From positions 1 through 32,001 of IMG/VR virus record IMGVR_UViG_3300046804_002040: a DNA stretch of 32,001 nucleotides; one strand, 5' to 3'. A program made the position numbers and the translations under genes. The notes below the pieces were generated by a model, which saw only the letters and a list, made by a program, of their open reading frames with translations, searched no databases and had not been told where the DNA came from. This document shows, piece after piece, positions 9,725 to 32,001 of this stretch (position 1 is its first letter; each line of letters starts with the position of its first letter). The stretch is from a virus.

Positions 9725-10651
9725 ATGACAGGAACAGTCGGCGCAAGATTAAAGAACGATGGAACGTTACTTACTGCCGGTTCGTTTGATGAAAAAGGTG
9801 ATGTTCATACTGGACACAAAGTTACAGTAGACACTATATTCGCAGATGAGCTAGATGAAATCACGTTGTCAGATGGACAACCTTCCGGCGGTTCTATCAA
9901 ATTAAACGGCACTAACCAGATGATTACAATCACTGGTTCCGGTGATTTCCAATTCGGAAATGATGCATTCACAGTTGAAGGTTGGTTCTATTCTACTTCA
10001 ACATCATATCAGCGTCTGTGGTCTTTCCCAGACGGTGATAACGTTGAGATGATGGGTTCAGTATTGTATTATTGGAACGGTTCTAGTGCACCGGTAGGTA
10101 GTGGAACAGGTGTTGTACCTCAAAATCAATGGTTCCATGTAGCATTAGTGAAAACAGATTCAACACATGTTAAAGTATATGTAAATGGTGTATCTGTTAT
10201 CACAGATTCATCACCATTCAATTCAGTATCATCACGAGCATTAGCAATCGGTGGTGAAGTTAACACTGATGTAACAGGTCAGTCAGGTACATCAGGTTCT
10301 AGTGATGGTTTCTTCACTGGACAAATTACAAATTTCCGTGTAGTAAAAGGGGTTGCAGTGTATACTGGTAACTTTAGTACTCCTATTGCACCTTTTAGTG
10401 CTACACAAGACAGCAGTGTTAATATCTCTGCTATTACAGGTTCTGCAACAAAGTTGTTATTAACAGTAGCAAGTTCAGGTGCAATGACAACAGATAGTTC
10501 GGGAACGAGCAAGACTGTTACAAATGTAGGTAGTGCAACGTATGATGCGTTGACACCGTTATCAATCAATTACAATGGTATGATGAAGCAGAGAAAATCT
10601 GGGGAGTTGTTAGTTGGTAATGAATTTGATGAAGTTACAGGTATAGTGTAA
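9725..10651 (+). CDS. Protein E: LamG/concanavalin-like carbohydrate-binding virion protein
   Basis: This 308-residue protein has three parts. Residues 1-52 begin TGTVGARLKNDGTLL and match the start of protein G. Residues about 53-230 form a LamG/concanavalin A-like jelly roll: FTVEGWFYS, the strand pair QWFHVALVK...VKVYVNG, and TNFRVVKGVAVYTGNFSTP, which is typical of Laminin_G_3 domains in phages. The last 25 residues (GELLVGNEFDEVTGIV) match the end of G. Such domains bind sugars, so it is a candidate receptor-binding component for host surface glycans. Its start lies 13 nt after D. An inverted repeat spans its stop codon. The lectin fold is confident; the ligand is unknown. Confidence 0.88.
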   Translation: MTGTVGARLKNDGTLLTAGSFDEKGDVHTGHKVTVDTIFADELDEITLSDGQPSGGSIKLNGTNQMITITGSGDFQFGNDAFTVEGWFYSTSTSYQRLWSFPDGDNVEMMGSVLYYWNGSSAPVGSGTGVVPQNQWFHVALVKTDSTHVKVYVNGVSVITDSSPFNSVSSRALAIGGEVNTDVTGQSGTSGSSDGFFTGQITNFRVVKGVAVYTGNFSTPIAPFSATQDSSVNISAITGSATKLLLTVASSGAMTTDSSGTSKTVTNVGSATYDALTPLSINYNGMMKQRKSGELLVGNEFDEVTGIV

Positions 10652-17376: not shown

Positions 17377-19659
17377 ATGGCATTCTTATCATTCCCATCA
17401 CCGACGCAACTGAGAAACTTGTCTGACCCGTCATCTAATACCGACGCGGCGACAAAGCAGTATGTCGATGCCGCATTAAGCGGCGGAACTGGTACGATTG
17501 TTGTAGCTAATGTTACTGCTACCGGTGAGATTTCTGCAAATACAGTAGTAGCAAACAGTGCTAACTTGGGTAACACAGTTGATGCAAATTATTTCATTGG
17601 TGATGGTTTATATCTTTCTAACATACCTGGTTCTAATGTAACCGGTCAAGTAGCTAACGCATTAGTCGCAGGCACTGTTTATACTAATGCACAACCAAAT
17701 ATCACTAGTGTAGGTACACTAACAAGTTTAACTGTTAGTGGTAATGTCACTGCTGGTAATATCAAAACTGACCATTTGTTGTATGCTAATGGAACAGCAT
17801 ATACACTTGCTTCTTTCACAAACGATGGTGGATATTTAACATCTGCTGACATGAGTAGCTATGCAACTCAGACAGATGTAAGTAATGCAGTAGCAAACTT
17901 AGTAGCAAGTGCTCCGGCAGCATTGGATACATTGAACGAGTTGGCAAATGCTTTAGGTAATGACGCTAGCTTCTCTACTACACTTACTAACAGTTTAGCC
18001 AATAAGTTAAGTACAAGCTCTTTTAATTCTACAGCAAACACATGGATTGCTACACAGTCAACTAGCAATTTAACTGAAGGTACTAATCTATATTTTACCG
18101 AATCTCGTGCTAATTCTGCAATTGATGCCCGTGTAACGAAATCATTTGTTGATAACTTATCTATCACTAACATTGGTACACTAACATCTCTTACGGTTGA
18201 AGGTATTACTGACTTAGGTGATGTTGGTAATATACGAATTGCCGGTGGTAACGCTAACTTTATATTAACAACTGATGGCAGTGGTAATCTATCTTGGGTT
18301 GCACCTTCTAGCAGCGCAGGTTCGTTGACCGCTGATGTAGATAGTTTTACTGGTAACGGTGTACAAACTGCATTCACATTAACAAATGCACCACAAGGCG
18401 CAAACTATTCAATTGTTGCAGTTCAAGGTATCGTTCAACCTAAATCAGCATACACTATCAGTGGCTCAACATTGACTTTCAGTGAAGCTCCTGGCGACAC
18501 TGCTGATATTGAAGTCACTACATTTGGTGGCAATGTATCATCGGGCGGAAGCAGTAACGTTGCAGTGACAGTAAGTGGCAACGCACAACCAAACATTACG
18601 TCAGTTGGAACATTGACAAGTTTATCTGTAGGTGATATTAGCATCACAGGCAACATTCTTCCAACTGCAAACATAACATATAACTTAGGTAGCCCTACAG
18701 CAAGATTCAAAGACATTTATTTGTCAGGAACTACTATTGACTTGGCTGGTGCAACAATCAAAACTGATGCGGCAACTGGTGCTATCGCATTGATACCGCA
18801 ACCAACTGTTGCTGTGCCCAATCCAATCGGTATCGTTATTACTACTTCAGGTACTCTCGCTACGGTAACTACTACTGCCGGTGAAGCAAACGTATCTCAT
18901 ATTTCTAACGCAGTTAACAACAGTGCTAACTTTGCATCAACTGACTATGTTGATAGTGCAGTCGCAAACCTAGTTAACTCAGCACCATCTGCTCTAAATA
19001 CATTGAATGAACTAGCTACTGCATTGGGCAATGACGCTAGCTTCTCAACTACAGTTACCAACAGTTTAGCTAATAAACTAAACAGTAACGCATTTACATA
19101 CGCTAACATTACCGGTAAGCCTACTTTAGGTAACATCAGCACTGTTAATTTAGACGGAAACGCAAGTAATATCTTATACGGTAATGGTACGTTTGCAGCA
19201 GTTCCTGCGCAGGGGGTAACTCTCAACGCATATTCAAATTCAAGTGTATTCCCTAGTTCAAACGACGGAGCAATGGCATTTGCATTAGATACTGCGGTAT
19301 TATACATCAGAAACAGCAACGCATGGGTAGCAGTTAAGTCAGCTAACCCACAATATATCACATTGAATCAACCAGGACCAATTACAACTCCAGTGACCGG
19401 TACCGCAAGGTATTATCCAAAAGGCAATATCACAATTAGTAATGTATATGCTTACTTAGGAACTCCTAGTTCATCAAATCTTACATTTAACCTATATAAA
19501 AACGGGTCTAATGTAGGACTATTCACAGTTAGTGCTAATGCTTATGTTATGTCAACGGCTTCAACTAATATCACAATGACTTCAAGTGATTATTTGACAT
19601 TGGGTGTTGCTACTGGTACAGGGGCAACTGACTTGAAGGTTGATTTAGAGTATAAATAA
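17377..19659 (+). CDS. Protein I: tail-fibre-like protein, first gene of cassette 1 (I-J-K-L)
   Basis: This 760-residue protein starts with a TDAATKQYVDAAL segment typical of phage fibres. It contains twice, at about 166-210 and 523-568, the phage fibre repeat of the form ALDTLNELANALGND followed by FSTTLTNSLANK. QPNITSVGTL motifs, an FTGNG...SEAPGD module (about 322-390) and an ARFKDIYLSG module (about 430-470) follow. The last 100 residues (from LNQPGPITTP to DLKVDLEYK) match the end of protein P. No Shine-Dalgarno is evident at this start, which lies one base after the stop of H, so translation probably depends on ribosomes finishing H. The stop codon lies in a perfect late-promoter octamer. 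Confidence 0.85.
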   Translation: MAFLSFPSPTQLRNLSDPSSNTDAATKQYVDAALSGGTGTIVVANVTATGEISANTVVANSANLGNTVDANYFIGDGLYLSNIPGSNVTGQVANALVAGTVYTNAQPNITSVGTLTSLTVSGNVTAGNIKTDHLLYANGTAYTLASFTNDGGYLTSADMSSYATQTDVSNAVANLVASAPAALDTLNELANALGNDASFSTTLTNSLANKLSTSSFNSTANTWIATQSTSNLTEGTNLYFTESRANSAIDARVTKSFVDNLSITNIGTLTSLTVEGITDLGDVGNIRIAGGNANFILTTDGSGNLSWVAPSSSAGSLTADVDSFTGNGVQTAFTLTNAPQGANYSIVAVQGIVQPKSAYTISGSTLTFSEAPGDTADIEVTTFGGNVSSGGSSNVAVTVSGNAQPNITSVGTLTSLSVGDISITGNILPTANITYNLGSPTARFKDIYLSGTTIDLAGATIKTDAATGAIALIPQPTVAVPNPIGIVITTSGTLATVTTTAGEANVSHISNAVNNSANFASTDYVDSAVANLVNSAPSALNTLNELATALGNDASFSTTVTNSLANKLNSNAFTYANITGKPTLGNISTVNLDGNASNILYGNGTFAAVPAQGVTLNAYSNSSVFPSSNDGAMAFALDTAVLYIRNSNAWVAVKSANPQYITLNQPGPITTPVTGTARYYPKGNITISNVYAYLGTPSSSNLTFNLYKNGSNVGLFTVSANAYVMSTASTNITMTSSDYLTLGVATGTGATDLKVDLEYK
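19651..19658 (+). promoter_or_regulatory. T4-type late promoter, perfect consensus (TATAAATA)
   Basis: TATAAATA matches the T4 late octamer exactly. It is also the coding sequence for the last two residues of protein I plus two bases of its stop codon. It lies 16 nt before the ATG of J, just enough for a short leader with the AAAGGA ribosome-binding site. Confidence 0.75.
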
Positions 19660-19674
19660 ACAAAGGAATAATTA

Positions 19675-20586
19675 ATGCTTGTAAGAATTAAACAAACATC
19701 AACGTCAACAATCACAGAATTATTGGCAAATTTAAAAACAATCATCACCGGTGCGATGACCACCACAACTGTCAATGGTGTAGTTAAACCTAGCAACCTA
19801 ACAAATATTGATTCTGCTAACTCATCTGTGTTGGGCACAATCTGGACTAATAGTAACTCACTTTATTCTAACCCAACGGGAAACGACTATAAAAAGAAAA
19901 ACAATGCATACACAACCTACGAACATTGGTTTAAACTATCTGCAAGTTCAACTAAATTGGCAGTAGAGTATGGTAATAATTATGCAAATACTGCACTCAA
20001 TACATCAGGAGCACTAACATCATTGATTGATGCAACTGCAACTGATAAAACAATTGACGTTATCATCACTGATAAAATTTTCTTTGTTAATCAAGCACCA
20101 ACTCGTGGAATGGCATTACTATGCGATGTTTCTAAGAATGGTATGAACCGTTACTTCACCGATTCAATGATGATGGCAGGCTGTGTCCCGACAGCAGCGG
20201 ACGATACTGGTGTACCTGATGCATATTATCAAGTATTCAGTATACCAAAAGCATACAGTTTATCATCATCCACTTATACTAACCAAACAGGTATGTATCT
20301 ACACAATCTATCTGCGGAGTTAGCACCTGATGCTAAAAATAAAACAACTAAAGTACCATTGTCCACTTGTTACATAGGTAATCAACAACAAGGTTTATAT
20401 CCTATCTACGGAGTAAAGGGATTTTCTAATAGTCCTATCTTTTTTGATGCAGGTATTATGTATGATAGTGACAATAAAGTTTATTATACAACTGGTAAAT
20501 TGGCAGCGAGCGGAACTTCTAGTACGGTTGTATACGCAGAAGGTAACGCATATCAAGGATCACAAATTGTGATTGAAGGAGAATAA
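19675..20586 (+). CDS. Protein J: virion-associated protein, paralogue of Q
   Basis: This 303-residue protein of unknown function begins MLVRIKQTSTSTITELLANL, an N-terminus of the form M[LFY][VC][KR]-aromatic/aliphatic that K, Q and R also have. The middle holds DVIITDKIFFVN...GMALLCDVSKNG, which aligns with the corresponding segment of Q (ELIIILTNKSLVLI...CIGWVDITSNG). It has three Cys residues and no membrane helix, signal peptide or enzyme motif. AAAGGA precedes the ATG and a consensus late promoter lies just upstream. It stands between a fibre gene and K, as Q does between T and R. It could be a fibre-associated adhesin or a structural connector. Confidence 0.75.
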   Translation: MLVRIKQTSTSTITELLANLKTIITGAMTTTTVNGVVKPSNLTNIDSANSSVLGTIWTNSNSLYSNPTGNDYKKKNNAYTTYEHWFKLSASSTKLAVEYGNNYANTALNTSGALTSLIDATATDKTIDVIITDKIFFVNQAPTRGMALLCDVSKNGMNRYFTDSMMMAGCVPTAADDTGVPDAYYQVFSIPKAYSLSSSTYTNQTGMYLHNLSAELAPDAKNKTTKVPLSTCYIGNQQQGLYPIYGVKGFSNSPIFFDAGIMYDSDNKVYYTTGKLAASGTSSTVVYAEGNAYQGSQIVIEGE

Positions 20587-20589
20587 TCA

Positions 20590-21966
20590 ATGTTTTGTAA
20601 AGTAACACTTATGGGTGACGCAAGGTCACAAAATCAACAGTTAATGAAGGCTGTCAGAGCAATTGCAACCGCTAGTGCCAACTCAACACCATCCGTAACT
20701 GGTAGTACAGCTTACAATAACGCTAGTACAGGTCAGTATGAGGTAATTACGACCGTTTTGGATAACACAGTAGCTGGTGGATGGACAGTAAAATCGGATC
20801 AAACAACACTGAATAGCAGTATTATATCAACTAACTCTTTTTTAGAAAGTTTATTGTTGTATAGAGATACTGGTAAATCTGGATTACCTTATTTGTGGTT
20901 CAGTATGATTGAAGGTGCATATACTAGCAGTCAGATTAATTATGGTCCTTTCCTGTCATTTGGATATGCAACAACTTTGGCAAATTGTAATTATGGTTCC
21001 GGATATAACGTTACTGGAACATATTCGGCAGGAACCGCTTCTACTTCGGTATATGCAGGCGGATGTCCATTCACCACCTCAACATTCATATATGATTATA
21101 ATAGGGTCGCAGGCATATCCAGTAGTGCAACCAGAGTTTATTACATCTCAGCCACTAGCGAATTCATTCATATACAGCAAGATGTTGCTTCAACAAGTGT
21201 AGCTCATTGTGGTTCATGGTTTCATTTAGGACTTAGAACCAATAGTTCATGGGAAGACAATTATAATGACAATCCATATTGGGTTGCGTTGTGGTGTAGC
21301 CAAGGATCTAATAGTGCGTATACAGGACAAGCTAGTGATGCTGCTGGGTATTGGACTGTAATGAGAACAATTGACACAACTACGGGAACAGTAGGGTCAG
21401 CAGTAAACATTTGGAGAGCAACTAATCCTGGATCAAGTGCTGGTAGCTACACCACCATGAGCCCATTGACCAATGTTCAATATGCAGCCACTTACAGTAC
21501 TCCATATTATAGACAAATCGCTCCGCAGAATCCCACAACTGTTCCGTTTAGTTACCCAACTAATTATAGTTCTGCTGGTTCAAATGGAGGAACCGGATAT
21601 ACATTAGGAACCTGGCAAGGCACAGGTTCTACCACCGCATTACAAACAGATATCTTTAATGTATATTGGGCTACGGCCACCCAGGTACCGTCAGTGGGTG
21701 TTACATCCGATTCTACTACAAATGCGTTGATTAGTCCTGCATTACCGATGTATATACGATATACTGGAACTAGTAATTTTGGCGGATATATGAAGAACTT
21801 GTTTCAGGGTGGTATATATAGCTCTGCCGCAGAATTAGATTTATACCATGTTCCTGATGCATCTTATACTATTGACGGAACAACCTATATTGGTATCAGA
21901 ATGGGATATGTTGCTAGTAGCTCCGGACCTAATCCTAGACAGCTTCTATATGTAAAGGCTTCATAA
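20590..21966 (+). CDS. Protein K: virion-associated protein, paralogue of R
   Basis: This 458-residue protein of unknown function aligns with R along its length. Shared text includes STPS near residue 33, VTTVLxN...GGW in K as ITTVLDN...GGW, the core YYISATSEFIHI...WFHLGLRT...W...YNDNPYWV (from about residue 182), and a C-terminus with IDGTTYIGIRMG and LYVKAS. It is rich in Trp, Tyr, Ser and Thr, a composition common in beta-rich receptor-binding or virion surface proteins. A strong GGAG precedes the ATG, 3 nt after the stop of J, so J and K are one translational pair. The N-terminal ~30 residues resemble those of J, which suggests a common docking segment. No catalytic motif is recognised. 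Confidence 0.75.
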   Translation: MFCKVTLMGDARSQNQQLMKAVRAIATASANSTPSVTGSTAYNNASTGQYEVITTVLDNTVAGGWTVKSDQTTLNSSIISTNSFLESLLLYRDTGKSGLPYLWFSMIEGAYTSSQINYGPFLSFGYATTLANCNYGSGYNVTGTYSAGTASTSVYAGGCPFTTSTFIYDYNRVAGISSSATRVYYISATSEFIHIQQDVASTSVAHCGSWFHLGLRTNSSWEDNYNDNPYWVALWCSQGSNSAYTGQASDAAGYWTVMRTIDTTTGTVGSAVNIWRATNPGSSAGSYTTMSPLTNVQYAATYSTPYYRQIAPQNPTTVPFSYPTNYSSAGSNGGTGYTLGTWQGTGSTTALQTDIFNVYWATATQVPSVGVTSDSTTNALISPALPMYIRYTGTSNFGGYMKNLFQGGIYSSAAELDLYHVPDASYTIDGTTYIGIRMGYVASSSGPNPRQLLYVKAS

Positions 21967-21967
21967 A

Positions 21968-22249
21968 ATGCCTAGTAGCGTAGTCCCGACATTTTTTAAA
22001 AAAACAGTTAGTTTATCTACGTCTGTCGTATCAGAAGATGTGTTGACTGAAAGCCTGTATGTGTCAGTTACTCCCGTTATGACTAACAGACAATTTACTA
22101 ATTCCCAAACATCATTATCCATACAAACAGTCCTAGAAGATTCATTATCCGAAGCAATAAGTTTGAGTTTTAAACCCATCTACAAAATCATGCAAACAAC
22201 CGAATCTACCACTAGCACCAACAATAATTATCAGTACTGGACAGACTAA
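21968..22249 (+). CDS. Protein L: 93-residue unknown protein, last gene of cassette 1
   Basis: I do not recognise this protein. It is rich in Ser, Thr and Val, with SxS..VxxDxLxESL-type spacing repeated (VVSEDVLTESL near residues 20-30 and VLEDSLSEAISL near 55-66). It starts one base after the stop of K with no Shine-Dalgarno, so it probably relies on coupled translation. It occupies the slot that S occupies in the second cassette, although the two are not clearly similar in sequence. It may be a small virion or chaperone protein. Confidence 0.6.
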   Translation: MPSSVVPTFFKKTVSLSTSVVSEDVLTESLYVSVTPVMTNRQFTNSQTSLSIQTVLEDSLSEAISLSFKPIYKIMQTTESTTSTNNNYQYWTD

Positions 22250-22258
22250 CCCAAAACA

Positions 22259-22266
22259 GATAAATA
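22259..22266 (+). promoter_or_regulatory. T4-type late promoter (GATAAATA)
   Basis: GATAAATA lies in the short gap after protein L, 22 nt before the ATG of protein M. It is identical to the motif before protein A. Confidence 0.65.
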
Positions 22267-22288
22267 TAACATATAAAAGGTATTCATA

Positions 22289-24703
22289 ATGTCACTACTA
22301 AAAGTCAAACCATTTAGCTTGGATCAAACAGCTACGTTTTCGTTTGCTAATGCTAACATAGCCGGAAACATTGTTTCAGGTAATGCTAATCTAGGCAATT
22401 TAGCGTCAGCTAACTACTTTAGCGGAAATGCTAGTCTATTGTTCGGCATCGCAGCCGGCAACATTACTGGTCAAGTTGCTAACAGCTTAGTAGCTGGTAC
22501 GGTATACACAGCAGCACAACCTAACATTACATCGGTTGGTACACTAACTAGCGTAACAGTCAGTGGTGCAAGTGATTTAGGTGCAGTGGCTAATGTTAAG
22601 ATTACAGGTGGTTCAACTGGTTATGTACTAAAGACAGACGGTCAAGGAAACCTATCATGGGGTTCAATGACTACTGGTACAGGTAACGCTAACGTTGCTG
22701 GTAGTAATACACAGATTCAGTTCAATGACGGAACTAACTTATCTGCTAGTGGTAACTTGACATTTGACGTATCAACTAAAACCCTTGCAGTAGACTTTAT
22801 CTCAGCTAACGGTAGTGCATTATTTGGACTTGCAGGTGGCAACGTAGTCGGTGATGTATCGGGTGCTAATCATGCTAACGTAGCTGATTCAGCTAATGCA
22901 GTGGCAGGTGCTAACGTATCAGGTGCAGTAGCATTCGCAACTACAGCAAACGCAGTAGCTGGTGCTAACGTTTCTGGTGCTGTAGCTAATGCGACATACG
23001 CAGTTACAGCAGGAACAGCTAACTCAGTAGCTGGTGCTAATGTATCAGGTGAAGTAGCTTTTGCAGCAGTTGCCAACTCAGTAGCCGGTGCTAACGTTTC
23101 CGGCGCAGTAGCATTCGCAACAACTGCTAATGCAGTCGCAGGTGCCAATGTATCAGGTACAGTAGCTAATGCGACATACGCAGTTACAGCAGGAACAGCT
23201 AACTCAGTGGCTGGTGCTAATGTAACAGGCACCGTAGCTAATGCAACGTATGCGACAACTGCAGGCAGTGCTGATTCAGTAGCCGGTGCTAATGTAACTG
23301 GACAAGTAGGTAACGCATTAGTTGCAGGCACAGTTTACACTAATGCACAACCAAATATCACATCAGTCGGTACGTTAACTAGTTTAGCAGTCACTGGCTC
23401 ATTGTCAGCCGGTGACGCAACTATTACAGGTAACTTAACAGTTACCGGAACAACAACTACAGTTAACTCAACTGTAACACGAATTGTAGACCCAATCTTT
23501 GAATTGGGCGGCGGAGCCAACGGCGCAGCGTTATCAAGCAATGACGGCAAAGAACGTGGGCAATTATTGCATTACTATGACGGTGGTGTAAAAGATGCGT
23601 TTATGGGTTGGATGAATACCGATAAGGTATTTACTTTTGCTAGTAGCGTATCAGTAACCGATAATACGGTAACAATAACAACACTAGGTAACATTAAAGC
23701 AGGTGATGCAAACTTAGGTAATGCAGTTACTTCTAATTACTTTATTGGTAATGGTAGTTTATTAACCGGTGTAGTAGCTACTACTGCCGTGTCCGTCACA
23801 GCGAGTGCTCAACCAAACATCACAAGTGTTGGTACACTGACTAGTCTATCAGTTACCGGTAATTTATCAGCCGGTAACGTAGCAGGAGGAAACTTAGTAA
23901 GTGCAAACTATGTAAGTGGAAATGGTTCATTACTGTCTGCATTAGCTGGTGCTAATGTAACTGGACAAGTAGGTAACGCATTAGTTTCAGGTACAGTTTA
24001 CACTGCGGCACAACCAAACATTACTAGTGTCGGTACATTAACTACTTTAGCAGTTTCTGGCACTACTAATCTAGGGGCAGTTGGTAATATCACTATCACA
24101 GGTGGTAATGCAAACTATGTATTGAAGACTGACGGTACAGGTAATCTAGCTTGGACTGCAATGCCTACTACTGAAATGGTAGTTGACACATTTACAGGTG
24201 ACGGCACTTGGACAATGAAGACCTTATCTGCAACTCCTGCTAGTGTTGACTATACTATCGTAGGTATCGGTGGTGTCTTGCAACCAAGAGATGCATACAG
24301 CGTACTAGCAGACGTAATCACGTTTGATGAAGCACCGCCCGCAGGTTATGTTGTTGAAATTACAACAGTAACTGGCGGTGGCAGTTCGGGAGGCAGTGGC
24401 GGCGGCTCAAGTTATACATATTCTGAAGTAACTTCAAACGTTACTATGACTGCTTCAACTAAGTACATCGTTGATACATCAACAGCAAACATCACATTAA
24501 CATTACCATCAACTGGTACATTAGGTGATGAGATTTCTATTATCGATGGTACTGGAAATGCAAGCACACATGCAATTACAATTGCCCGTAACGGTGGAAA
24601 AATTCAAGGGGCAGCAAGTGATATGACCGTCACTACTGATAGAGCAGCATTCACTTTAGCGTATTATAATGCTACTCAGGGTTGGTTACTAACTAATGTA
24701 TAA
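22289..24703 (+). CDS. Protein M: repeat-rich modular tail-fibre-like protein
   Basis: This 804-residue protein has four QPNITSVGTL motifs. At about 205-340 is a run of short units of the form ANSVAGANVSGxVA. The module TTTTVNSTVTR...ELGGGANG...ERGQLLHYY...FMGW lies at about 384-465 and an FTGDGTW...DEAPPAGYVVEI module at about 630-700. A Gly/Ser linker (GGGSSGGSGGGSS) follows. The last ~95 residues (about 709-804: KYIVDTSTANITLTLPS, GNASTHAITIARNG, YYNATQGWLLTN) are a domain I know from marine phage structural proteins. AAAAGG precedes the ATG. The repeat region carries a 180-bp DNA duplication. It is probably a beta-rich trimeric fibre. Confidence 0.85.
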   Translation: MSLLKVKPFSLDQTATFSFANANIAGNIVSGNANLGNLASANYFSGNASLLFGIAAGNITGQVANSLVAGTVYTAAQPNITSVGTLTSVTVSGASDLGAVANVKITGGSTGYVLKTDGQGNLSWGSMTTGTGNANVAGSNTQIQFNDGTNLSASGNLTFDVSTKTLAVDFISANGSALFGLAGGNVVGDVSGANHANVADSANAVAGANVSGAVAFATTANAVAGANVSGAVANATYAVTAGTANSVAGANVSGEVAFAAVANSVAGANVSGAVAFATTANAVAGANVSGTVANATYAVTAGTANSVAGANVTGTVANATYATTAGSADSVAGANVTGQVGNALVAGTVYTNAQPNITSVGTLTSLAVTGSLSAGDATITGNLTVTGTTTTVNSTVTRIVDPIFELGGGANGAALSSNDGKERGQLLHYYDGGVKDAFMGWMNTDKVFTFASSVSVTDNTVTITTLGNIKAGDANLGNAVTSNYFIGNGSLLTGVVATTAVSVTASAQPNITSVGTLTSLSVTGNLSAGNVAGGNLVSANYVSGNGSLLSALAGANVTGQVGNALVSGTVYTAAQPNITSVGTLTTLAVSGTTNLGAVGNITITGGNANYVLKTDGTGNLAWTAMPTTEMVVDTFTGDGTWTMKTLSATPASVDYTIVGIGGVLQPRDAYSVLADVITFDEAPPAGYVVEITTVTGGGSSGGSGGGSSYTYSEVTSNVTMTASTKYIVDTSTANITLTLPSTGTLGDEISIIDGTGNASTHAITIARNGGKIQGAASDMTVTTDRAAFTLAYYNATQGWLLTNV
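22921..23280 (+). repeat. Tandem 180-bp in-frame duplication in the gene for protein M
   Basis: Bases 22921-23100 and 23101-23280 are adjacent, diverged copies of a 60-codon unit coding for AVAFATTANAVAGANVSG and following units. The best conserved part is identical for 47 bp (22982-23028 against 23162-23208), followed by one mismatch and 15 more identical bases. Each unit is itself built of ~15-residue AGANVSG repeats. Confidence 0.88.
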
Positions 24704-24714
24704 GAAAGAATAAT

Positions 24715-26304
24715 ATGGCAGACTATAAGCAATTTAAAAACAAAAGTGTACTAGATGCACTTACTACTGGTAATGTCTCCTTAGGTTCAGTCGCCAACGT
24801 GCGTATAACTGGAGGCTCATCTGGGCAGTTTATCTCAACTGATGGAGCAGGTAATTTAAGTTTCGCAACACCTGCATCAGCAGGAACTATAACTGCAACT
24901 GCTACCGGATCATTAAGTGACGGTACTAAAGTGATTGTTAACAGTGATGGCACAGTAAGCTCTATATCTGATACTACTGAGAGTCTCACACAGTTCACCC
25001 CATCAGTTGCGAGTAACAGTAACAATATGCTTTCTGCCTACGATCCTACTACTGGTAAAATATTATTAGCAATTATTAATAGTAGTACATCACCAATTTG
25101 GTACATTGGTACTATAACAAGCGGAAGTTTAACTTTGGATTATGGATATAGTTTATCAGCGACTAATCTTTCTTATAGTGGTAAACTAATATATATAACA
25201 GAAAACAAATTTTTATTCTACTATACTGATAGTTCTGGATATCTTAAAGCTAACGTAATGACCATTTCAGGTACAACGGTCAGCGCAGGTACGGCAATGA
25301 CATTAGTTTCTGTAGCAACGCAAAACCTAAGTGCTGCTTATGATACCGTGAGACAGCGCATTGCAATGACATACACAAAAAGTAATGTTCCGTATGTTAT
25401 GATTGGTACACTATCAGGTACGACTGTTACCTGGGGAGGTGAAGCTACGATAATTGGCGCTAGTGCTATCTCAGTGGGTAGAGTAGTATATAACATAGCA
25501 ACCAAAACAATGGTGTATTTGTGGACACAAGGTTCTACCCCACAATATGGATTATCCACATCAATTCCAATGCCAACTTCAACTAACACAGCTTACACAT
25601 GGCAATCAGTTACAAACCCCTTATACACTACTTGGTTTTACACAGAATCTGGTACATATGCGATAACTGAAAGTTTTCAAGTTTCATACAATGTAGCAGC
25701 AAAAAAGATAGTAATTTTATGTTATCAAAAAAATAGTGTAGGTGCTTGGATAGTTCATGGTGACGGTAAAAATTGGAGTAATCCATTGCACATTCCCTCT
25801 ACTTTATCAGGTAACAATAATACTCCGTATATGACAATGAGTTATTGTTATACAACTACACGAACAACTATATTATTCAGTGATACCGGATATAATGGAT
25901 TTTATGCTTTTTCATTATTATTTGACCCAGTAAATTCAGATACAATAACAGTAGGTACTGTTAATTATAGAGGAGTAGTACCGTATTTTGCGACTATAGC
26001 ATCTGCCAACAACGGACAAACTCTTGTATTATATGGCAATGGAACAGTATCTGCCTACATGTGGCAACTACCAACCACAACACTTACTAATACCAACTAT
26101 ATAGGAATTTCAAATGGGTCTTATACTAACGGTCAAACTGCTACAATTCAAACTGCTGGATCAGTTGATGATGCTCAAACAGGACTAACTCCTGGATCAG
26201 CATACTATGTTCAGAATAACGGATCTCTGTCAACTACGCCCGGAATTCCTAATGTTTTTGCAGGCACTGCTATCGCATCCACTAAACTATTAATTAAAGG
26301 ATAA
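24715..26304 (+). CDS. Protein N: propeller-like virion protein with conserved C-terminal cap
   Basis: This 529-residue protein begins with a short VRITGGSSGQF...DGAGNLSF segment shared with the fibres. The body (about 90-455) holds repeated blade-like units: LSAYDPTTGKILLAI, LSAAYDTVRQRIAMTY, VVYNIATKTMVYLW and VSYNVAAKKIVILC. Between them are GTxSGTTVTWG-type strands. This periodic pattern suggests a beta-propeller and resembles the YDxxxxKVVVAY repeats I know from phage tail proteins. The last ~70 residues (NYIGIS...TGLTPGSAYYVQ...TKLLIKG) are a cap found in cyanophage and pelagiphage virion proteins. Its start lies 11 nt after M. It is probably a receptor-binding or fibre-tip protein; the fold is inferred. 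Confidence 0.8.
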   Translation: MADYKQFKNKSVLDALTTGNVSLGSVANVRITGGSSGQFISTDGAGNLSFATPASAGTITATATGSLSDGTKVIVNSDGTVSSISDTTESLTQFTPSVASNSNNMLSAYDPTTGKILLAIINSSTSPIWYIGTITSGSLTLDYGYSLSATNLSYSGKLIYITENKFLFYYTDSSGYLKANVMTISGTTVSAGTAMTLVSVATQNLSAAYDTVRQRIAMTYTKSNVPYVMIGTLSGTTVTWGGEATIIGASAISVGRVVYNIATKTMVYLWTQGSTPQYGLSTSIPMPTSTNTAYTWQSVTNPLYTTWFYTESGTYAITESFQVSYNVAAKKIVILCYQKNSVGAWIVHGDGKNWSNPLHIPSTLSGNNNTPYMTMSYCYTTTRTTILFSDTGYNGFYAFSLLFDPVNSDTITVGTVNYRGVVPYFATIASANNGQTLVLYGNGTVSAYMWQLPTTTLTNTNYIGISNGSYTNGQTATIQTAGSVDDAQTGLTPGSAYYVQNNGSLSTTPGIPNVFAGTAIASTKLLIKG

Positions 26305-26306
26305 CC

Positions 26307-26558
26307 ATGAAAACTATAGTCAAATTAGATAACAACATCTCACTTTATGTGTTTGAAGACAATGAAGTGGTTGATGTTCAAGAGGATAAGACAATCATTG
26401 GTTCTCCGGAAACACTAATCATTAGTGATTGCAATTCAACAAATATCACAGTACATGAAAATGTAACTGTGCCGGAAGATTGGAAAGGTTGGAAATACCT
26501 TTTTGACGGTACCGATTGGACGGAAAACTCAGACTGGGTAGACCCCTTAGTAGAATAA
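26307..26558 (+). CDS. Protein O: small conserved phage protein
   Basis: This 83-residue acidic protein starts MKTIVKLDNNISLYVFEDN and ends WKGWKYLFDGTDWTENSDW. I recognise the type from T4-like marine phages, where it lies beside fibre genes, but its role is not known to me. AAAGGATAA precedes the ATG, 2 nt after the stop of N, so the two are co-translated. By position it could be a fibre assembly helper or small fibre-associated protein. There is no membrane or catalytic motif. Confidence 0.78.
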   Translation: MKTIVKLDNNISLYVFEDNEVVDVQEDKTIIGSPETLIISDCNSTNITVHENVTVPEDWKGWKYLFDGTDWTENSDWVDPLVE

Positions 26559-26565
26559 TATAGGT

Positions 26566-26592
26566 GTATAGCAGTGCATATCACTGTAATAC
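26566..26592 (+). other. Inverted repeat before protein P
   Basis: GTATAGCAGTG and CACTGTAATAC pair around a CATAT loop with one A/A mismatch and one G/T wobble (11 positions per arm). No T-run follows, so it is a weak terminator at best. It ends 6 nt before the late-promoter motif at 26599. Confidence 0.45.
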
Positions 26593-26598
26593 CGATAA

Positions 26599-26606
26599 AC
26601 TAAATA
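26599..26606 (+). promoter_or_regulatory. T4-type late promoter motif almost touching the start of protein P (ACTAAATA)
   Basis: ACTAAATA matches the CTAAATA form seen elsewhere in the window but ends only 4 nt before the ATG at 26611. If used with T4 geometry, the transcript would begin at or inside the start codon. It may serve a leaderless message, or be unused. Confidence 0.45.
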
Positions 26607-26610
26607 CAGT

Positions 26611-28848
26611 ATGGCATTAGAAAAAATCAGACCCAAGGTAGTAGATGAAACGCAGAATTACGTATTCAATAACGTTACTGCGACAGGTAACCTAACCACC
26701 CTAAATGCCAACTTAGGTAATCTAGTATCTGCTAACTACTTCACTGGTGTATTAATTACCGGTGCTCAACCCAACATTACATCAGTGGGTACATTGGGTA
26801 ATGTTAATGTAACTAGTAATGTATCTGCTGGTAATATAAAGACGGATCATCTTCTTTATGCCAATGGTGCAGCATGGTCATTTGCTACTGTATCTGGGTC
26901 AAACACACAAGTACAGTTTAACAATAGTGGCTCATTTGGTTCTAGTGCTAACTTTACATTTGATAGTACATCAAATACATTATCAGTAGATAACTTTGTA
27001 GGCAATGGCTCTGGTCTAGGAAACATAACCGGTAGTAATGTAACCGGTCAAGTACCAAACAGTTCTATTGCAGGTACGGTATACACAAACGCACAACCCA
27101 ATATTACTAGTGTAGGTACATTAACTAGTGTAACTATCTCAGGTAACTTAACTTCAGGTAACGCCAACTTAGGTAATCTAGCATCAGCTAACTATTTCAG
27201 TGGTTCTGGTAACTTATTAAGCAACATTGTCGGTGGTAATGTTACTGGGCAAGTTTCATATGCCGCAGTCGCTAACAGTGTTGCGGGTGCTAATGTATCC
27301 GGTGCTGTAACTTATGCAGCCACTGCAAACGCAGTATCCGGTGCTAATGTAATGGGTGAAGTTTCATATGCCGCAGTCGCTAACAGTGTTGCTGTTGCAA
27401 ATGTAAGCGGTATCGGCAACATTGCTACTATCAACAAAGATGGCAATGCAAGTAATATCTTGTACGGCAATGGTGTATTTGCAAGTGCACCTGTCACATA
27501 TGGTGATAGTAATGTCGCAACATACTTACCCACATATACAGGTAATTTAAGTCCAGGTAACATCTCAATCAGTGTTGCTAATCTTTTCATCACTGGTGGA
27601 ACTGCCAACTATGTATTGAAAACAGATGGTTCAGGAAATCTAAGTTGGGCAGAACAATCAGGCGGCGGGTCAAGTACATATACTAGTGTAACAGTAGATA
27701 ATTTTACTGGTGACGGAACAACTACTCAATTTACATTGAGTGTAACTCCAGGCAACATTAATCAAACATTTGTTAACTATAACGGCGCTCTACAGTTACG
27801 TGCCGCCTACACATTGAGCGGCGCCGACATTGTATTCAGTGAAGCACCTGCAAATGGGTCATTGATTGAAGTTACAACTACTATGGGTGTAACGCAAGCA
27901 GGTGGCAGTTCTCTAACTGTCAGGAATTATGTTTCTGATGGTGTACAATTAACTTATACAGTATCAAGTGGTGTAACTGAATCTAGTATTCTTGTTACAG
28001 AAAACGGTCTAGTTCAAGTACCAACCACAGACTATACAGTAAGTGGATCTACATTGACATTTGTGACTGCCCCGGGTTACGGGGTAAAAATTCAAATTCG
28101 TGAATTAACTACTGCAATCGCAACAATGACGATTCCTGGCTCAAATACAGAAGTATTGTTTAACAATGCAGGAAGTCTAGGTAATAGTGCTCAATTTAAA
28201 TTCGATGCGTCATCAAATACACTTTCTGTAGGTAGCATCAGTCTGACCGGTAACATAATACCGACTGCTAACGTTACTTACAATTTAGGTAATAGCACTA
28301 ACCGCTTTAAAGACTTGTTCTTGTCAGGTAGTACAATTGATTTAGCCGGTGCCCAGATTAAGACTGACGCAACCACTGGTGCTATTGCGTTGATACCCAT
28401 ACCAACAGCAAACGTACCTGATCCAACAGGTATTATCATAACTGCTTCAGGTACCCTAAGTACAGTGGCTACAACAAACGGGGTAGCAAATACTTCGCAA
28501 CTCTCTTCGGCAATTGCAAACTCAGTTCAGCTTGTACAACCTAGATTTATTTCAATGCACACTACGGGATCCGTGTCAGGACCTAGTACCGGGACGACCA
28601 GATTCTATCCACCCAAAGCAGTGTCAATCAGTAACATAGTTGCTAGTTTAAGCCAAGCTAGTACAACTGACTTTGTACTAAAAATTAAGAAGAACGATAC
28701 ACAGGTTAATACATATACTGTTACTGCAAACACTAATACTATGACAAAGGCAGCACTCAACGTCAACTTAACTACAACTGATTATTTGACCGTGGACATC
28801 GTGTCAGGAAGTGCAGTAGATTTGCGTGTAGATTTAGAGTACACTTAA
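26611..28848 (+). CDS. Protein P: tail-fibre-like protein, first gene of cassette 2 (P-T-Q-R-S)
   Basis: This 745-residue protein is a paralogue of I. Shared parts are KTDHLLYANG, QPNITSVGTL (twice), GNASNILYGNG, FTGDG...SEAP modules (about 363-425, with a divergent second copy at about 437-500), NRFKDLFLSGSTIDLAG (from about 560), and the last ~100 residues ending DLRVDLEYT against DLKVDLEYK in I. The fibre repeat with NELANALGND, present twice in I, is absent. No Shine-Dalgarno is visible before the ATG, and a late-promoter motif lies almost on the start. The N-terminus (MALEKIRPKVVDETQ) differs from the other fibres. It is probably a trimeric fibre. Confidence 0.85.
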   Translation: MALEKIRPKVVDETQNYVFNNVTATGNLTTLNANLGNLVSANYFTGVLITGAQPNITSVGTLGNVNVTSNVSAGNIKTDHLLYANGAAWSFATVSGSNTQVQFNNSGSFGSSANFTFDSTSNTLSVDNFVGNGSGLGNITGSNVTGQVPNSSIAGTVYTNAQPNITSVGTLTSVTISGNLTSGNANLGNLASANYFSGSGNLLSNIVGGNVTGQVSYAAVANSVAGANVSGAVTYAATANAVSGANVMGEVSYAAVANSVAVANVSGIGNIATINKDGNASNILYGNGVFASAPVTYGDSNVATYLPTYTGNLSPGNISISVANLFITGGTANYVLKTDGSGNLSWAEQSGGGSSTYTSVTVDNFTGDGTTTQFTLSVTPGNINQTFVNYNGALQLRAAYTLSGADIVFSEAPANGSLIEVTTTMGVTQAGGSSLTVRNYVSDGVQLTYTVSSGVTESSILVTENGLVQVPTTDYTVSGSTLTFVTAPGYGVKIQIRELTTAIATMTIPGSNTEVLFNNAGSLGNSAQFKFDASSNTLSVGSISLTGNIIPTANVTYNLGNSTNRFKDLFLSGSTIDLAGAQIKTDATTGAIALIPIPTANVPDPTGIIITASGTLSTVATTNGVANTSQLSSAIANSVQLVQPRFISMHTTGSVSGPSTGTTRFYPPKAVSISNIVASLSQASTTDFVLKIKKNDTQVNTYTVTANTNTMTKAALNVNLTTTDYLTVDIVSGSAVDLRVDLEYT
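27251..27392 (+). repeat. 34-bp direct repeat in the gene for protein P
   Basis: The same 34 bases occur at 27251-27284 and 27359-27392, 108 bp apart (36 codons). They code for VSYAAVANSVA in both copies. The identical third positions suggest a recent internal copy or gene conversion in the AGANVSG-type repeat region. Confidence 0.85.
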
Positions 28849-28854
28849 TTAATT

Positions 28855-28862
28855 ACTAAATA
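28855..28862 (+). promoter_or_regulatory. T4-type late promoter (ACTAAATA)
   Basis: ACTAAATA lies just after the stop of P and 17 nt before the ATG of T, with a GATAAGGAA ribosome-binding region between. Its position matches the consensus octamer at the end of I in cassette 1. Confidence 0.6.
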
Positions 28863-28879
28863 GTAGATAAGGAAATTTT

Positions 28880-29185
28880 ATGGATTTTGTCAAAGTTTTT
28901 TATAGCGGGAACCCCGCAAAAGTATTCAAATTAACCACTCAAGTCGAAAATACCGATATTACGTCATCGGAAAGAGCGTTAGAAATACATGAGCTTTTAG
29001 CTGAAGCATTAGGTGTTGAACCTGCCACATTGTTTGGATCAATCTCGGATATTCAAGGTGAGACATATTTTTACACGGAACACCATGAATTGTCGTTGTT
29101 GTCTACTGACAAGTTTGAATTGGTTTTTGATTCTGATTCGTTAGATGAATCACCGACGACCGAATCAGAAGAAGGGGAAGTATAA
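28880..29185 (+). CDS. Protein T: 101-residue acidic unknown protein, only in cassette 2
   Basis: I do not recognise this protein. It begins MDFVKVFYSGNPAKVFKLTT, has a helix-like middle (SERALEIHELLAEALGV, about 37-53), and ends with a strongly acidic tail (DESPTTESEEGEV). There is no signal peptide or membrane segment. The TAA stop overlaps the ATG of Q by one base (TAATG), and the Shine-Dalgarno of Q (AAGGGG) lies within its last codons, so T and Q are translationally coupled. No equivalent lies between I and J in cassette 1. It could be a small assembly factor or structural partner of Q. Confidence 0.7.
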   Translation: MDFVKVFYSGNPAKVFKLTTQVENTDITSSERALEIHELLAEALGVEPATLFGSISDIQGETYFYTEHHELSLLSTDKFELVFDSDSLDESPTTESEEGEV

Positions 29186-30075
29186 TGTACGTTAGATATA
29201 GAATCTCAGCCAGCACTACCGCGGCAGATGTGTTGAATGATATTACCGGTATCATTGGTGGAACAATTACGGCTGCTAGCGGATTGAGCACAAATGCACA
29301 AGCAAACAGCACGTTCTCAGGTAGCTATCCATCAGGAACAATATATGCGGTATCATATACGAACAGTTCTACTGCAAGTGTGATTAGTAAAAAACACAAT
29401 TCTGCATCTTCCTATACTTCATATATTTTGTTGAACGCATCATCTGATACAACTGGCTTAGGCGTAGGTATCAACACAAGTACAAGCGCATTAGGAAAAG
29501 ATTGGAGTTCTGGGGCAACTATTACTAATAGTGCAACAATGTATGCTAATAAACCGGCATTTTTAAAACCTTACTATAGCACCACAAATATTCCACATGA
29601 GTTGATTATTATCTTGACAAATAAATCATTAGTGTTAATACAACCTGCACATGGTACTTGTATCGGTTGGGTTGATATCACTAGTAACGGTGTGGTCGAG
29701 AAATATACTACAAGTATGAGAACCGTTATGTGCGACTTTGTTAACTCCCAAGCAAAAGTTCCGTACACATACAAACTTAACGGAACTAGTTCAGGTTATG
29801 GTACAACAACATACACTGGAATCTATAATACTGCAGGTTCAGTGCCAGGATCATCATTGGTTCCAGGCGGTTCCTTCTTGACATTAGATGAAAACAATTA
29901 TCCAGTCATCATTGAAAATCCATCATATATCAGAAGTCCTGATGCAGGGGGATATGTAAACTTTTTATACGGTGTTGTATCACTAGCACCGGGTGTTTTA
30001 TCTAGTAAAACAATTTACAACACAAGCGGAGTTACACGCATAACATACGGTAACTATGCATTTTTAACAGAATAA
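29185..30075 (+). CDS. Protein Q: virion-associated protein, paralogue of J
   Basis: This 296-residue protein starts MYVRYRISASTTAADVLNDI. It aligns with J in the N-terminal segment, in the ELIIILTNKSLVLI...GWVDITSNG middle, and in overall length. The second half contains a Gly/Ser/Tyr-rich loop region and VSLAPGVLSSKTIYN near the end. It overlaps the end of T by one base and lies 9 nt before R. Function is unknown; a surface-exposed structural role beside fibre proteins is inferred. Homology to J is judged by eye from shared segments, so identity is low but the placement supports it. Confidence 0.75.
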   Translation: MYVRYRISASTTAADVLNDITGIIGGTITAASGLSTNAQANSTFSGSYPSGTIYAVSYTNSSTASVISKKHNSASSYTSYILLNASSDTTGLGVGINTSTSALGKDWSSGATITNSATMYANKPAFLKPYYSTTNIPHELIIILTNKSLVLIQPAHGTCIGWVDITSNGVVEKYTTSMRTVMCDFVNSQAKVPYTYKLNGTSSGYGTTTYTGIYNTAGSVPGSSLVPGGSFLTLDENNYPVIIENPSYIRSPDAGGYVNFLYGVVSLAPGVLSSKTIYNTSGVTRITYGNYAFLTE

Positions 30076-30084
30076 GGAAAACAA

Positions 30085-31416
30085 ATGCTAGTAAAATTTA
30101 CAATGCCAGCGACAACGACATATAAAGATATTATTTGGAACTTAATGAGCGCAGTTTATGCAACCGCAACTGCAACTGCAGGCTCTACTCCATCAACAAC
30201 CAACTCTTCCAACAATAGTCTTGCCACTGCAAATAACATGGTCACTACTGTATTAGCAAACTCACAAGATGGTGGTTGGGTTACTGCAACCGGTAACGCT
30301 TTTACTGCGGGTACTGTGCCAGCTTCTTCAACCGCTGACTATTTTTTACGTCTACAAACCACAGATGGTAAAGGCGGAAATAAAATCTTTTCAATGGGTG
30401 CTGGTAATACTAATTGGGCTTACTATAGAGCTAATAATACTAGTATTGCTTCATATAATAAAACATGGACATCAATGGATGTTTTAACCACCCCATTCAA
30501 TGCAGGTACATATCAAGTGGGATATGGTGGAACAACGTTTGGTTCAGCGGGAAGTACCCCTGGACCGTTAGCTGTCACGGGTATGGGCTCTTGGATGACA
30601 GAAATAAATCCTACAAGTGCTCTAGCACAATCACAATATGGCCCATTCAGTGTCTATTCTTGGCCATCCACCGCCGGAACTATCTTTTATGTAGGTGCTA
30701 CTAGTGACTATATAACGTTATTGAGTCCCTATGGAATATGGTATTTTGGAACAAGGACAAGTCAGGGTTGGGAACAAAGTTATAGTGATAACCCTTATCT
30801 TGTTGGATTTGGATACCACCCTGGTATGCAAATGAACAACGGCGCCACTAACAATCACCACACACCATTCAGTGCAATGTATACACGAACGATTAACACA
30901 GACACTGTGAGTTATAGTGTTAACAGCCCTTATATGTATTATAATACTAGCAATGCAACTACTTCACCATACTATGGATTTAATACCCCGTCTCTTGCAT
31001 CAACTGCTACAACAAACCAAACAACGGATCCTATATCATTGAAAACGGGAGCCACTGTGCCACTAGGCAGTTATCCTACAACATCTGTTAGCACAAACAC
31101 ACTAAGAGAACTTTTCAGAAGAAATTCATGGGAAGCCAGTGGATTATTTGACGGTCCTAGTGTTGACAGTGGTACTGGATTATTAGTACCAACAGTATAC
31201 CCGATCAATTTCTCAGTATCAGGTTCATCAACTACTGCAGGTGGAACTCAGGGCGGTACTGCAATTGGCATCTATAAAGGACAAAACGGTATTAATGCAA
31301 ATAGCCCGTTACTAAGTCTACCGTCATATAATATAAACGGAAGTAATTATGCTCCTATCTGGGTAGGAACTCCAGGTGGAGCCAATAGCGACTTATTCTT
31401 TGTAAAATTAGTATAA
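30085..31416 (+). CDS. Protein R: virion-associated protein, paralogue of K
   Basis: This 443-residue protein aligns with K: STPS and VTTVLANSQDGGW near the N-terminus, FSM, then FYVGATSDYITLL...YFGTRTSQGWEQSYSDNPYLVGF from about residue 202, and INGSNYAPIWVG...FFVKLV at the C-terminus. It is Ser/Thr/Tyr/Trp-rich, with no membrane or catalytic signature. The N-terminus (MLVKFTMPATT) shares the M[LFY][VC][KR] start of J, K and Q. AAGGAAAA precedes the ATG. The Tyr/Trp-rich central block is the best conserved part and may form the core fold. It may be a receptor-binding or fibre-associated protein. Confidence 0.76.
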   Translation: MLVKFTMPATTTYKDIIWNLMSAVYATATATAGSTPSTTNSSNNSLATANNMVTTVLANSQDGGWVTATGNAFTAGTVPASSTADYFLRLQTTDGKGGNKIFSMGAGNTNWAYYRANNTSIASYNKTWTSMDVLTTPFNAGTYQVGYGGTTFGSAGSTPGPLAVTGMGSWMTEINPTSALAQSQYGPFSVYSWPSTAGTIFYVGATSDYITLLSPYGIWYFGTRTSQGWEQSYSDNPYLVGFGYHPGMQMNNGATNNHHTPFSAMYTRTINTDTVSYSVNSPYMYYNTSNATTSPYYGFNTPSLASTATTNQTTDPISLKTGATVPLGSYPTTSVSTNTLRELFRRNSWEASGLFDGPSVDSGTGLLVPTVYPINFSVSGSSTTAGGTQGGTAIGIYKGQNGINANSPLLSLPSYNINGSNYAPIWVGTPGGANSDLFFVKLV

Positions 31417-31417
31417 T

Positions 31418-31798
31418 ATGGCAAATCTAGCAGTAACATCCTACACTGTATCCTTTAACGCTATCGTTACTGCTAGTAGTAATATATTCCAAGCTGATAC
31501 CAGTACCGTAGTCAGTACACAGCAACCTATATTATCAGAAATTTCATTAAATCCAACAAGAACGGGTATACAGTTCTTGTCTTCCCCTATAACTGGCAGT
31601 AGCAATATATTCCAAGCTGATACCAGTACCGTAGTCAGTACACAGCAACCTATATTATCACAATTTGCCTTAAATTCAGATAATACAGTAGTGCAGTTCT
31701 CAAACCAGCCAGTAGCAATGACCACATTCACCGTTCAACAAGCAAACTCGTTTACAACGGGCGGAACCGCAAGTGCAACATACTGGGTCATGGGGTGA
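31418..31798 (+). CDS. Protein S: 126-residue protein with an internal perfect repeat
   Basis: I do not recognise this protein. Residues about 22-40 and 63-81 carry the same segment, NIFQADTSTVVSTQQPILS, encoded by identical 57-bp DNA. Between and after the copies are beta-like Val/Ser/Thr/Gln-rich stretches ending TASATYWVMG. It begins one base after the stop of R with no Shine-Dalgarno, so coupled translation is likely. It fills the place of L at the end of cassette 2. Its repeat structure suggests a small fibrous or surface protein; this is inference. Confidence 0.68.
   Translation: MANLAVTSYTVSFNAIVTASSNIFQADTSTVVSTQQPILSEISLNPTRTGIQFLSSPITGSSNIFQADTSTVVSTQQPILSQFALNSDNTVVQFSNQPVAMTTFTVQQANSFTTGGTASATYWVMG
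31481..31660 (+). repeat. 57-bp perfect direct repeat in the gene for protein S
   Basis: Bases 31481-31537 and 31604-31660 are identical over all 57 positions and are offset by 123 bp (41 codons), so gain or loss of a unit keeps the frame. The flanks differ at several positions. Silent sites are also identical, which points to recent duplication or conversion. Confidence 0.93.
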
Positions 31799-31913
31799 TG
31801 ACATGCTAGTTCATATAGATTTTACACTTTAAGGGTTCAGGTAGAGATATTTTCTAAAGATTAGAAATTAGTAGATAAACTAATAAATATTAAATTAACA
31901 CAAGGAGAAAGAA
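31799..31913 (+). other. Short intergenic gap between S and the last gene
   Basis: This 115-nt AT-rich gap holds a late-promoter motif at its 3' end and a weak 7-bp AT-only hairpin (31851-31867). I see no terminator or small gene in it. Confidence 0.5.
31882..31889 (+). promoter_or_regulatory. T4-type late promoter (AATAAATA)
   Basis: AATAAATA matches seven of eight bases of the late consensus and lies 24 nt before the ATG at 31914, in the AT-rich gap after S. Confidence 0.55.
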
Positions 31914-32001
31914 ATGGCACATTTCGCACAAATAGATGAAAACAACATCGTAGCAGAGCAGGATTTTATCGATTCCGGCGCTGTTGGTGATTCATCTAAG
32001 T
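31914..32001 (+). CDS. Small conserved phage protein, 3' partial
   Basis: Only the first 29 residues are in the window, starting MAHFAQIDENNIVAEQDFID. The opening MAHFAxxDENNIV is a type I know well from T4-like marine phages, where it marks a small protein of unknown function near structural genes. A strong AAGGAGA ribosome-binding site and a late-promoter motif precede it. The frame is open to the window edge. Its role cannot be read from this part. Confidence 0.75.
   Translation, partial: MAHFAQIDENNIVAEQDFIDSGAVGDSSK

Follow-up and report, generated by a model that had tools for sequence, protein, structure and literature searches.

We analyzed two blocks of genes, I-J-K-L and P-T-Q-R-S, in a 32,001-nucleotide (nt) stretch of DNA from an uncultured virus (IMG/VR record IMGVR_UViG_3300046804_002040, positions 1-32,001; referred to as the window). 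Both blocks sit in a fiber gene array downstream of gp23, the gene of the capsid protein. We consider it likely that each block is a host-attachment cassette with a two-protein adhesin similar to that of the Pseudomonas phage JBD30, and that the two cassettes are anciently diverged modules in two slots, with no recent local duplication.

Two homologous cassettes

All genes of both blocks lie on the plus strand, and the open reading frames (ORFs) bear out the gene coordinates and order given in an earlier, sequence-only reading of the window. Cassette 1 begins with I (17377..19659), which encodes a fiber protein of 760 residues with PHROG tail-fiber matches, followed by J (19675..20586) and K (20590..21966), assigned as the first and second adhesin subunits by matches to the J- and K-family profiles, and by L (21968..22249; 93 residues). 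Cassette 2 comprises the fiber gene P (26611..28848; 745 residues), T (28880..29185; 101 residues), the first and second adhesin subunit genes Q (29185..30075) and R (30085..31416), and S (31418..31798; 126 residues). Only 3 base pairs (bp) separate J from K and 9 bp separate Q from R; the J-K-type pair is also adjacent in ~20 relatives. M, N and O (22289..26558) lie between the cassettes and belong to neither.

To assess the similarity of the blocks, local and global alignment scores were compared with those of 200 composition-matched shuffles, and BLASTP was run in addition. The local score reached z=42 for I/P, z=16 for K/R and z=8.3 for J/Q. With BLASTP, R matched K over its full length (E=9e-13, 28% identity) and Q matched J (E=4e-5). 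I and P have a C-terminal domain of ~105 residues in common (E=1e-20, 38% identity), located in the last ~104 residues of I (nt ~19345-19656) and at nt ~28540-28845 in P; this domain is present in every cassette. The cross-pairs J/R, K/Q, J/K and Q/R stayed near the shuffles in local score (z 0.6-2.8), with global scores up to z 4.2 (J/R) and 3.6 (Q/R). Thus, the proposed matches of J to Q, of K to R and of the fiber C-termini held against composition-matched controls, and by these alignments the two blocks are homologous multi-gene units in the same order. Outside the C-terminal domain, part of the I/P similarity reflects general module sharing, because reshuffled modules (for example NALVAGTVYTNAQPNITSVGTLTSLTV) are common to the fiber-like genes a6, a7, G, H, I, M and P (window 3982-28848). 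The P fiber is 48% identical to the fiber of contig L014 over 626 columns.

The same order, a fiber gene with the ~105-residue C-terminal domain, then T, J, K and, in the last slot, a gene that is small or variable, was found in ~20 other viral contigs by searches with K and with family alignments, followed by profile annotation of gene order. R alone as query retrieved no relative among the viral contigs, and the A5 alignment was too diverse to serve for scanning. A direct tblastn search of 50,697 cultured-phage records with Q, R and the J and K proteins of L014 found nothing.

Within these cassettes, T proteins form a family of ~100 residues with an acidic isoelectric point (pI) near 4.1 (4.1 for T of the window). 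The gene is present in nearly every relative, in most cassettes between the fiber gene and J, and T is a genuine cassette gene. It is missing from I-J-K-L, from contigs L002, L003 and L004, and from the second L013 cassette and its relative L015; the L002-L004 and L015 contigs are cut upstream. The window and L013 each combine a T-less with a T-containing cassette, so T may work in trans.

Proteins encoded in the last slot range in length from 70 to 1590 residues across the relatives. Of 20 genes in this slot (slot 5), 17 have a tryptophan (Trp) within the last eight residues, whereas the share among other ORFs is 34 of 230 (Fisher p=1e-10, an optimistic value as the 20 genes include near relatives). 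L ends in NNYQYWTD and S in SATYWVMG. L and S had been paired as small genes of the last slot. Their position and C-terminal Trp motif agree with this pairing, and their bodies are unrelated (local z=0.5, not significant; global z=3.2). L and S are therefore equivalent by position and tail, not by body. S also carries an internal duplication, with SSNIFQADTSTVVSTQQPILS present twice. In other contigs (L012 4583-14408, L013 5682-7919, L008 11849-14437), proteins matching window gene a9 (9725-10651; LamG-like PHROG matches) lie in the last cassette slot or next to it.

A late-promoter motif had been reported at the end of each fiber gene. This applies to I, where the sole exact TATAAATA of the window lies within the final codons (position 19651), but not to P, whose end reads GAGTACACTTAA without the motif. 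One-mismatch sites of TATAAATA in the window were rarer than in shuffles. Late promoters were rejected as cassette boundaries.

Exchange versus duplication

The sequence-only reading explained the two blocks by one unit that was copied and then diverged. In the form considered here, an ancestral P-T-Q-R-S of this lineage would have been copied to the position flanked by H and M. That all main parts are homologous and in the same order, with both cassettes in one genome, fits this scheme, as does the existence of single-cassette relatives, which had been suggested as a check and were found: a 364-kb and a 165-kb contig, each with one J and one K, and G010 (see below). Two cassettes per contig also occur in L008 and L013, and L013 shows closer within-genome pairs, with its two J genes 59% and its two K genes 47% identical. 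L014 and L028 have one canonical and one divergent cassette. The divergent cassette (L014 985-3482; L028 17227-19700) contains two tandem J-like genes of ~415 residues with 41% mutual identity, and its own T-like gene.

The gene trees argue against the copying step. J shares 82% identity with a gene from a different phage (L003) and 31% with the J gene L008_2, but only ~25% with Q. Likewise, K has 61% identity to its L003 counterpart and 28% to R, and for L the identity to the L003 gene is 59%. In the trees, J, L003 and L008_2 were set apart from all other J genes, including Q (support 100/100). Sister pairing of J with Q and of K with R was rejected by the approximately unbiased (AU) test (p 8e-8 and 5e-6, respectively), and both rejections held when the longest branch was left out and the closest relative was included. 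In addition, T is missing from the supposed copy. A recent local duplication is thus rejected by the AU tests, and we regard the copying of P-T-Q-R-S into the upstream slot as improbable overall. A deep duplication, older than the separation of the window, L003 and L008 phages, is possible, because R may adjoin the cassette-1 clade in the K tree (80/78 in one tree, weak in a second).

Comparison with close relatives of the window phage points to exchange at the slot. The capsid proteins of G010 and G003 are 95% and 91% identical, respectively, to that of the window phage. G010 and the window are collinear up to and including H and the beginning of I, and collinearity resumes close to where M starts; in I it covers the first ~13-40 codons, which correspond to the G010 slot resident. 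In G010 the interval between H and M is occupied by a protein of 326 residues, similar to I at its start but without the C-terminal domain, and by two unrelated genes after it; J, K and L are absent from this interval. M is kept in G010, and N and O are absent there. After M, G010 carries a fiber-T-J-K cassette at the position of P-T-Q-R, whose J and K share just 32.5% and 30% identity with Q and R although the capsid proteins are 95% identical. This is consistent with either replacement or very rapid change. A shared origin of the slot-2 genes as one clade was not rejected (p 0.07 and 0.25). G003 has the divergent type of cassette upstream of a canonical one, which we infer to be in the same slot as I-J-K-L; the G003 flanks differ more. 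GC content and GC content at third codon positions of I-J-K-L are not distinct from the rest, so that composition neither supports nor excludes acquisition.

Taken together, because the cassettes are anciently diverged, the sister pairs are rejected and G010 has no cassette between H and M, acquisition or exchange at this slot fits better than local duplication. The blocks are anciently diverged, probably exchangeable modules in two slots.

Predicted fold and candidate function of the paired subunits

Q and R were modeled by AlphaFold (AF2) with the family alignments. The Q model (predicted local distance difference test score (pLDDT) 73.5; predicted template modeling score (pTM) 0.79) matched chain K of the JBD30 baseplate (PDB entry 8rk3) with Z 16.9 over 245 residues at a root-mean-square deviation (rmsd) of 3.4; the next entry scored Z 2.5. 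The R model (pLDDT 61.9, pTM 0.73) matched 8rk3 chain G with Z 15.4 over 252 residues (rmsd 3.7), with the next entry at Z 3.1. These chains are JBD30 gp47 (318 residues) and gp48 (307 residues), as assigned from chain length. By homology to the modeled Q and R, J is predicted to have a gp47-like and K a gp48-like fold.

In JBD30, gp47 and gp48 are reported to have similar folds and to assemble as heterodimers, three per arm, with the arms clasping the type IV pilus (PMC11445458). The two genes are neighbors, 1 bp apart, and their proteins are paralogous by profile comparison (probability 98.5%, E 2e-15). Comparing J with K by hhalign detected nothing; the kinship of J and K is visible only through the gp47/gp48 fold match. 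Adjacent paralogous pairs of this kind are also present in YuA, DLP3, AH2, SM1, SN1 and others, including Lydia-type pairs. The receptor of DLP3 is the type IV pilus (PMC8228603), and use of type IV pili is inferred for the others. An evolved JM2 derivative that had gained one host carried a change in its gp48-like gene (PMC11577772).

The window pairs resemble gp47/gp48 in being two adjacent genes for subunits of similar predicted fold, with Q like gp47 and R like gp48 over ~250 residues. They differ in several respects. JBD30 is a siphophage in which the pair lies between the tape measure and distal tail protein genes, and all sampled YuA, DLP3, AH2, SM1, SN1 and Lydia-type pairs likewise come behind the tape measure gene, in the tail operon of a siphophage. 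In contrast, the window pairs lie in a T4-like fiber array, where a window-type pair follows a fiber gene and usually also a T gene. The second subunit is longer in the K family (380-530 residues, versus 307 for gp48), and sequence similarity to the JBD30 proteins is not detectable. The pair is thus not placed in the gp47/gp48 sequence family, on the evidence of sequence profiles. Judged from the models, a J/K-type pair probably works like gp47/gp48.

Alternatively, J/K and Q/R might be generic beta-rich decoration or polysaccharide-binding proteins that have only a common phage fold and are unrelated to pili. The Ser-, Thr-, Asn- and Gly-rich sequences and the missing sequence similarity to gp47/gp48 would agree with this, as would weaker fold matches of the models, which reach virion proteins of unknown role. 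However, both members of an adjacent pair match the JBD30 pair with Z >15, whereas unrelated chains score near 3. We consider generic decoration a plausible explanation, though not the favored one.

A second alternative takes J-K for a tip adhesin of the gp38 type, as in the T4-like phage S16, with T as its chaperone and the likeness to JBD30 incidental. A chaperone or adhesin gene is commonly found 3' of the fiber gene (PMC7289586), and the cassettes resemble the T4-type distal tail fiber with gp38 in this placement directly downstream of the fiber gene and in modular exchange. The protein families are different, however, and the cassettes encode two large paralogous subunits instead of one. 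J, K, Q and R gave no gp38-family PHROG or significant Pfam match, although a missing match does not exclude membership. Considering also the strong match to gp47/gp48, a gp38-type adhesin is very improbable.

Under the favored reading, of JBD30-like adhesins in exchangeable slots, fiber I or P would end in the conserved C-terminal domain, which would close a trimeric shaft. J-K or Q-R, as structurally paralogous subunits, would be expected by analogy to form a heterodimer, placed as an adhesin at or near the fiber tip. The adhesin would hold on to a surface filament or another receptor, for which the best-supported guess is a type IV pilus-like structure; pilus binding by the window phage is proposed by analogy to JBD30. 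T, which is acidic, would have an accessory role, most probably as a chaperone in folding or assembly, and may work in trans. L or S would add a variable body, docked via the C-terminal Trp motif. With both sets displayed, two cassettes would provide two specificities, and recombination in two fixed slots, one flanked by H and M and the other after M, would let phages gain, lose and exchange cassettes. This reading builds on homology, gene order, predicted fold, tree position and slot variation.

Several points weigh against this reading. Both models behind the fold match are of moderate confidence. VIA-align gave a gp47-type chain as best for Q and a gp48-type chain for R, but Foldseek nearly tied both chains for Q, with E 5e-3 for gp47 and 1e-2 for gp48, values modest on their own. 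The one-to-one assignment of Q to gp47 and R to gp48 in the models is uncertain because of this near tie. Comparison of J or K with gp47/gp48 by hhalign profiles remained below 4% probability. J, K, Q and R have no usable Pfam, PHROG or PDB sequence matches, and they are not members of PHROG 687, which gp47 and gp48 themselves both match. Moreover, the JBD30 arms have their attachment at the baseplate core rather than on a trimeric fiber, and the window phage has no known host. As to the slots, the G010 sequence stops inside its K gene, and a further cassette downstream is possible.

Phage context and implications

The window starts with genes for a prohead protease (PHROG 207), a protein at the scaffold position (PHROG 10922, of unknown function) and gp23 (PHROG 138), in the order gp21-gp22-gp23 as in T4-like phages. 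Its gp23 is closest to those of large phages such as PBECO4, PA5oct and Vibrio phage 2.275.O (65-68% identity). By these matches, the window phage is a large T4-superfamily myovirus with a PBECO4/PA5oct-type capsid protein. In the loci near gp23 of PA5oct, PBECO4, Vibrio phage 2.275.O and Phosso, no J/K/T or gp47/gp48-like genes were detected at the level of hidden Markov models. At the other end of the window (31900-32001), S is followed by a gene beginning MAHFAQIDENN, relatives of which come after the cassette in L010, L014, L032 and L033.

Among cultured phages, Alteromonas phage R22Y (PP212876; L040 5285-8950) has a fiber that shares the C-terminal domain of the cassettes (E 5e-26). Two genes come after it, and the product of the second ends in QFW. 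Its downstream proteins differ in being not detectably J or K; the first is of the PHROG 9600 type and the second LamG-like, via PHROG matches in common with window a9. Xanthomonas phage X1 (L061 2163-5916), a 200-kb phage, has a cassette-like layout in which a large gene precedes the genes for a PHROG 9600-type protein and for another protein of about the same size. The downstream genes of X1 and R22Y were rejected as J/K relatives; no link was found, and they resemble another family, PHROG 9600.

In conclusion, the analysis provides a testable function for a protein family that has no direct-search match in the cultured-phage records, and ties adhesins of uncultured T4-like phages by fold to a solved pilus-binding structure. 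It also suggests a route by which attachment may be changed or widened, with a whole four- to five-gene module swapped while the capsid stays nearly identical. More speculatively, and with considerable doubt on our part, T4-like large phages could mount JBD30-type two-subunit, pilus-gripping arms on trimeric fibers and keep two specificities at once in two exchangeable slots, with the conserved C-terminal Trp tag of the last gene acting as a universal connector for additional, exchangeable domains.

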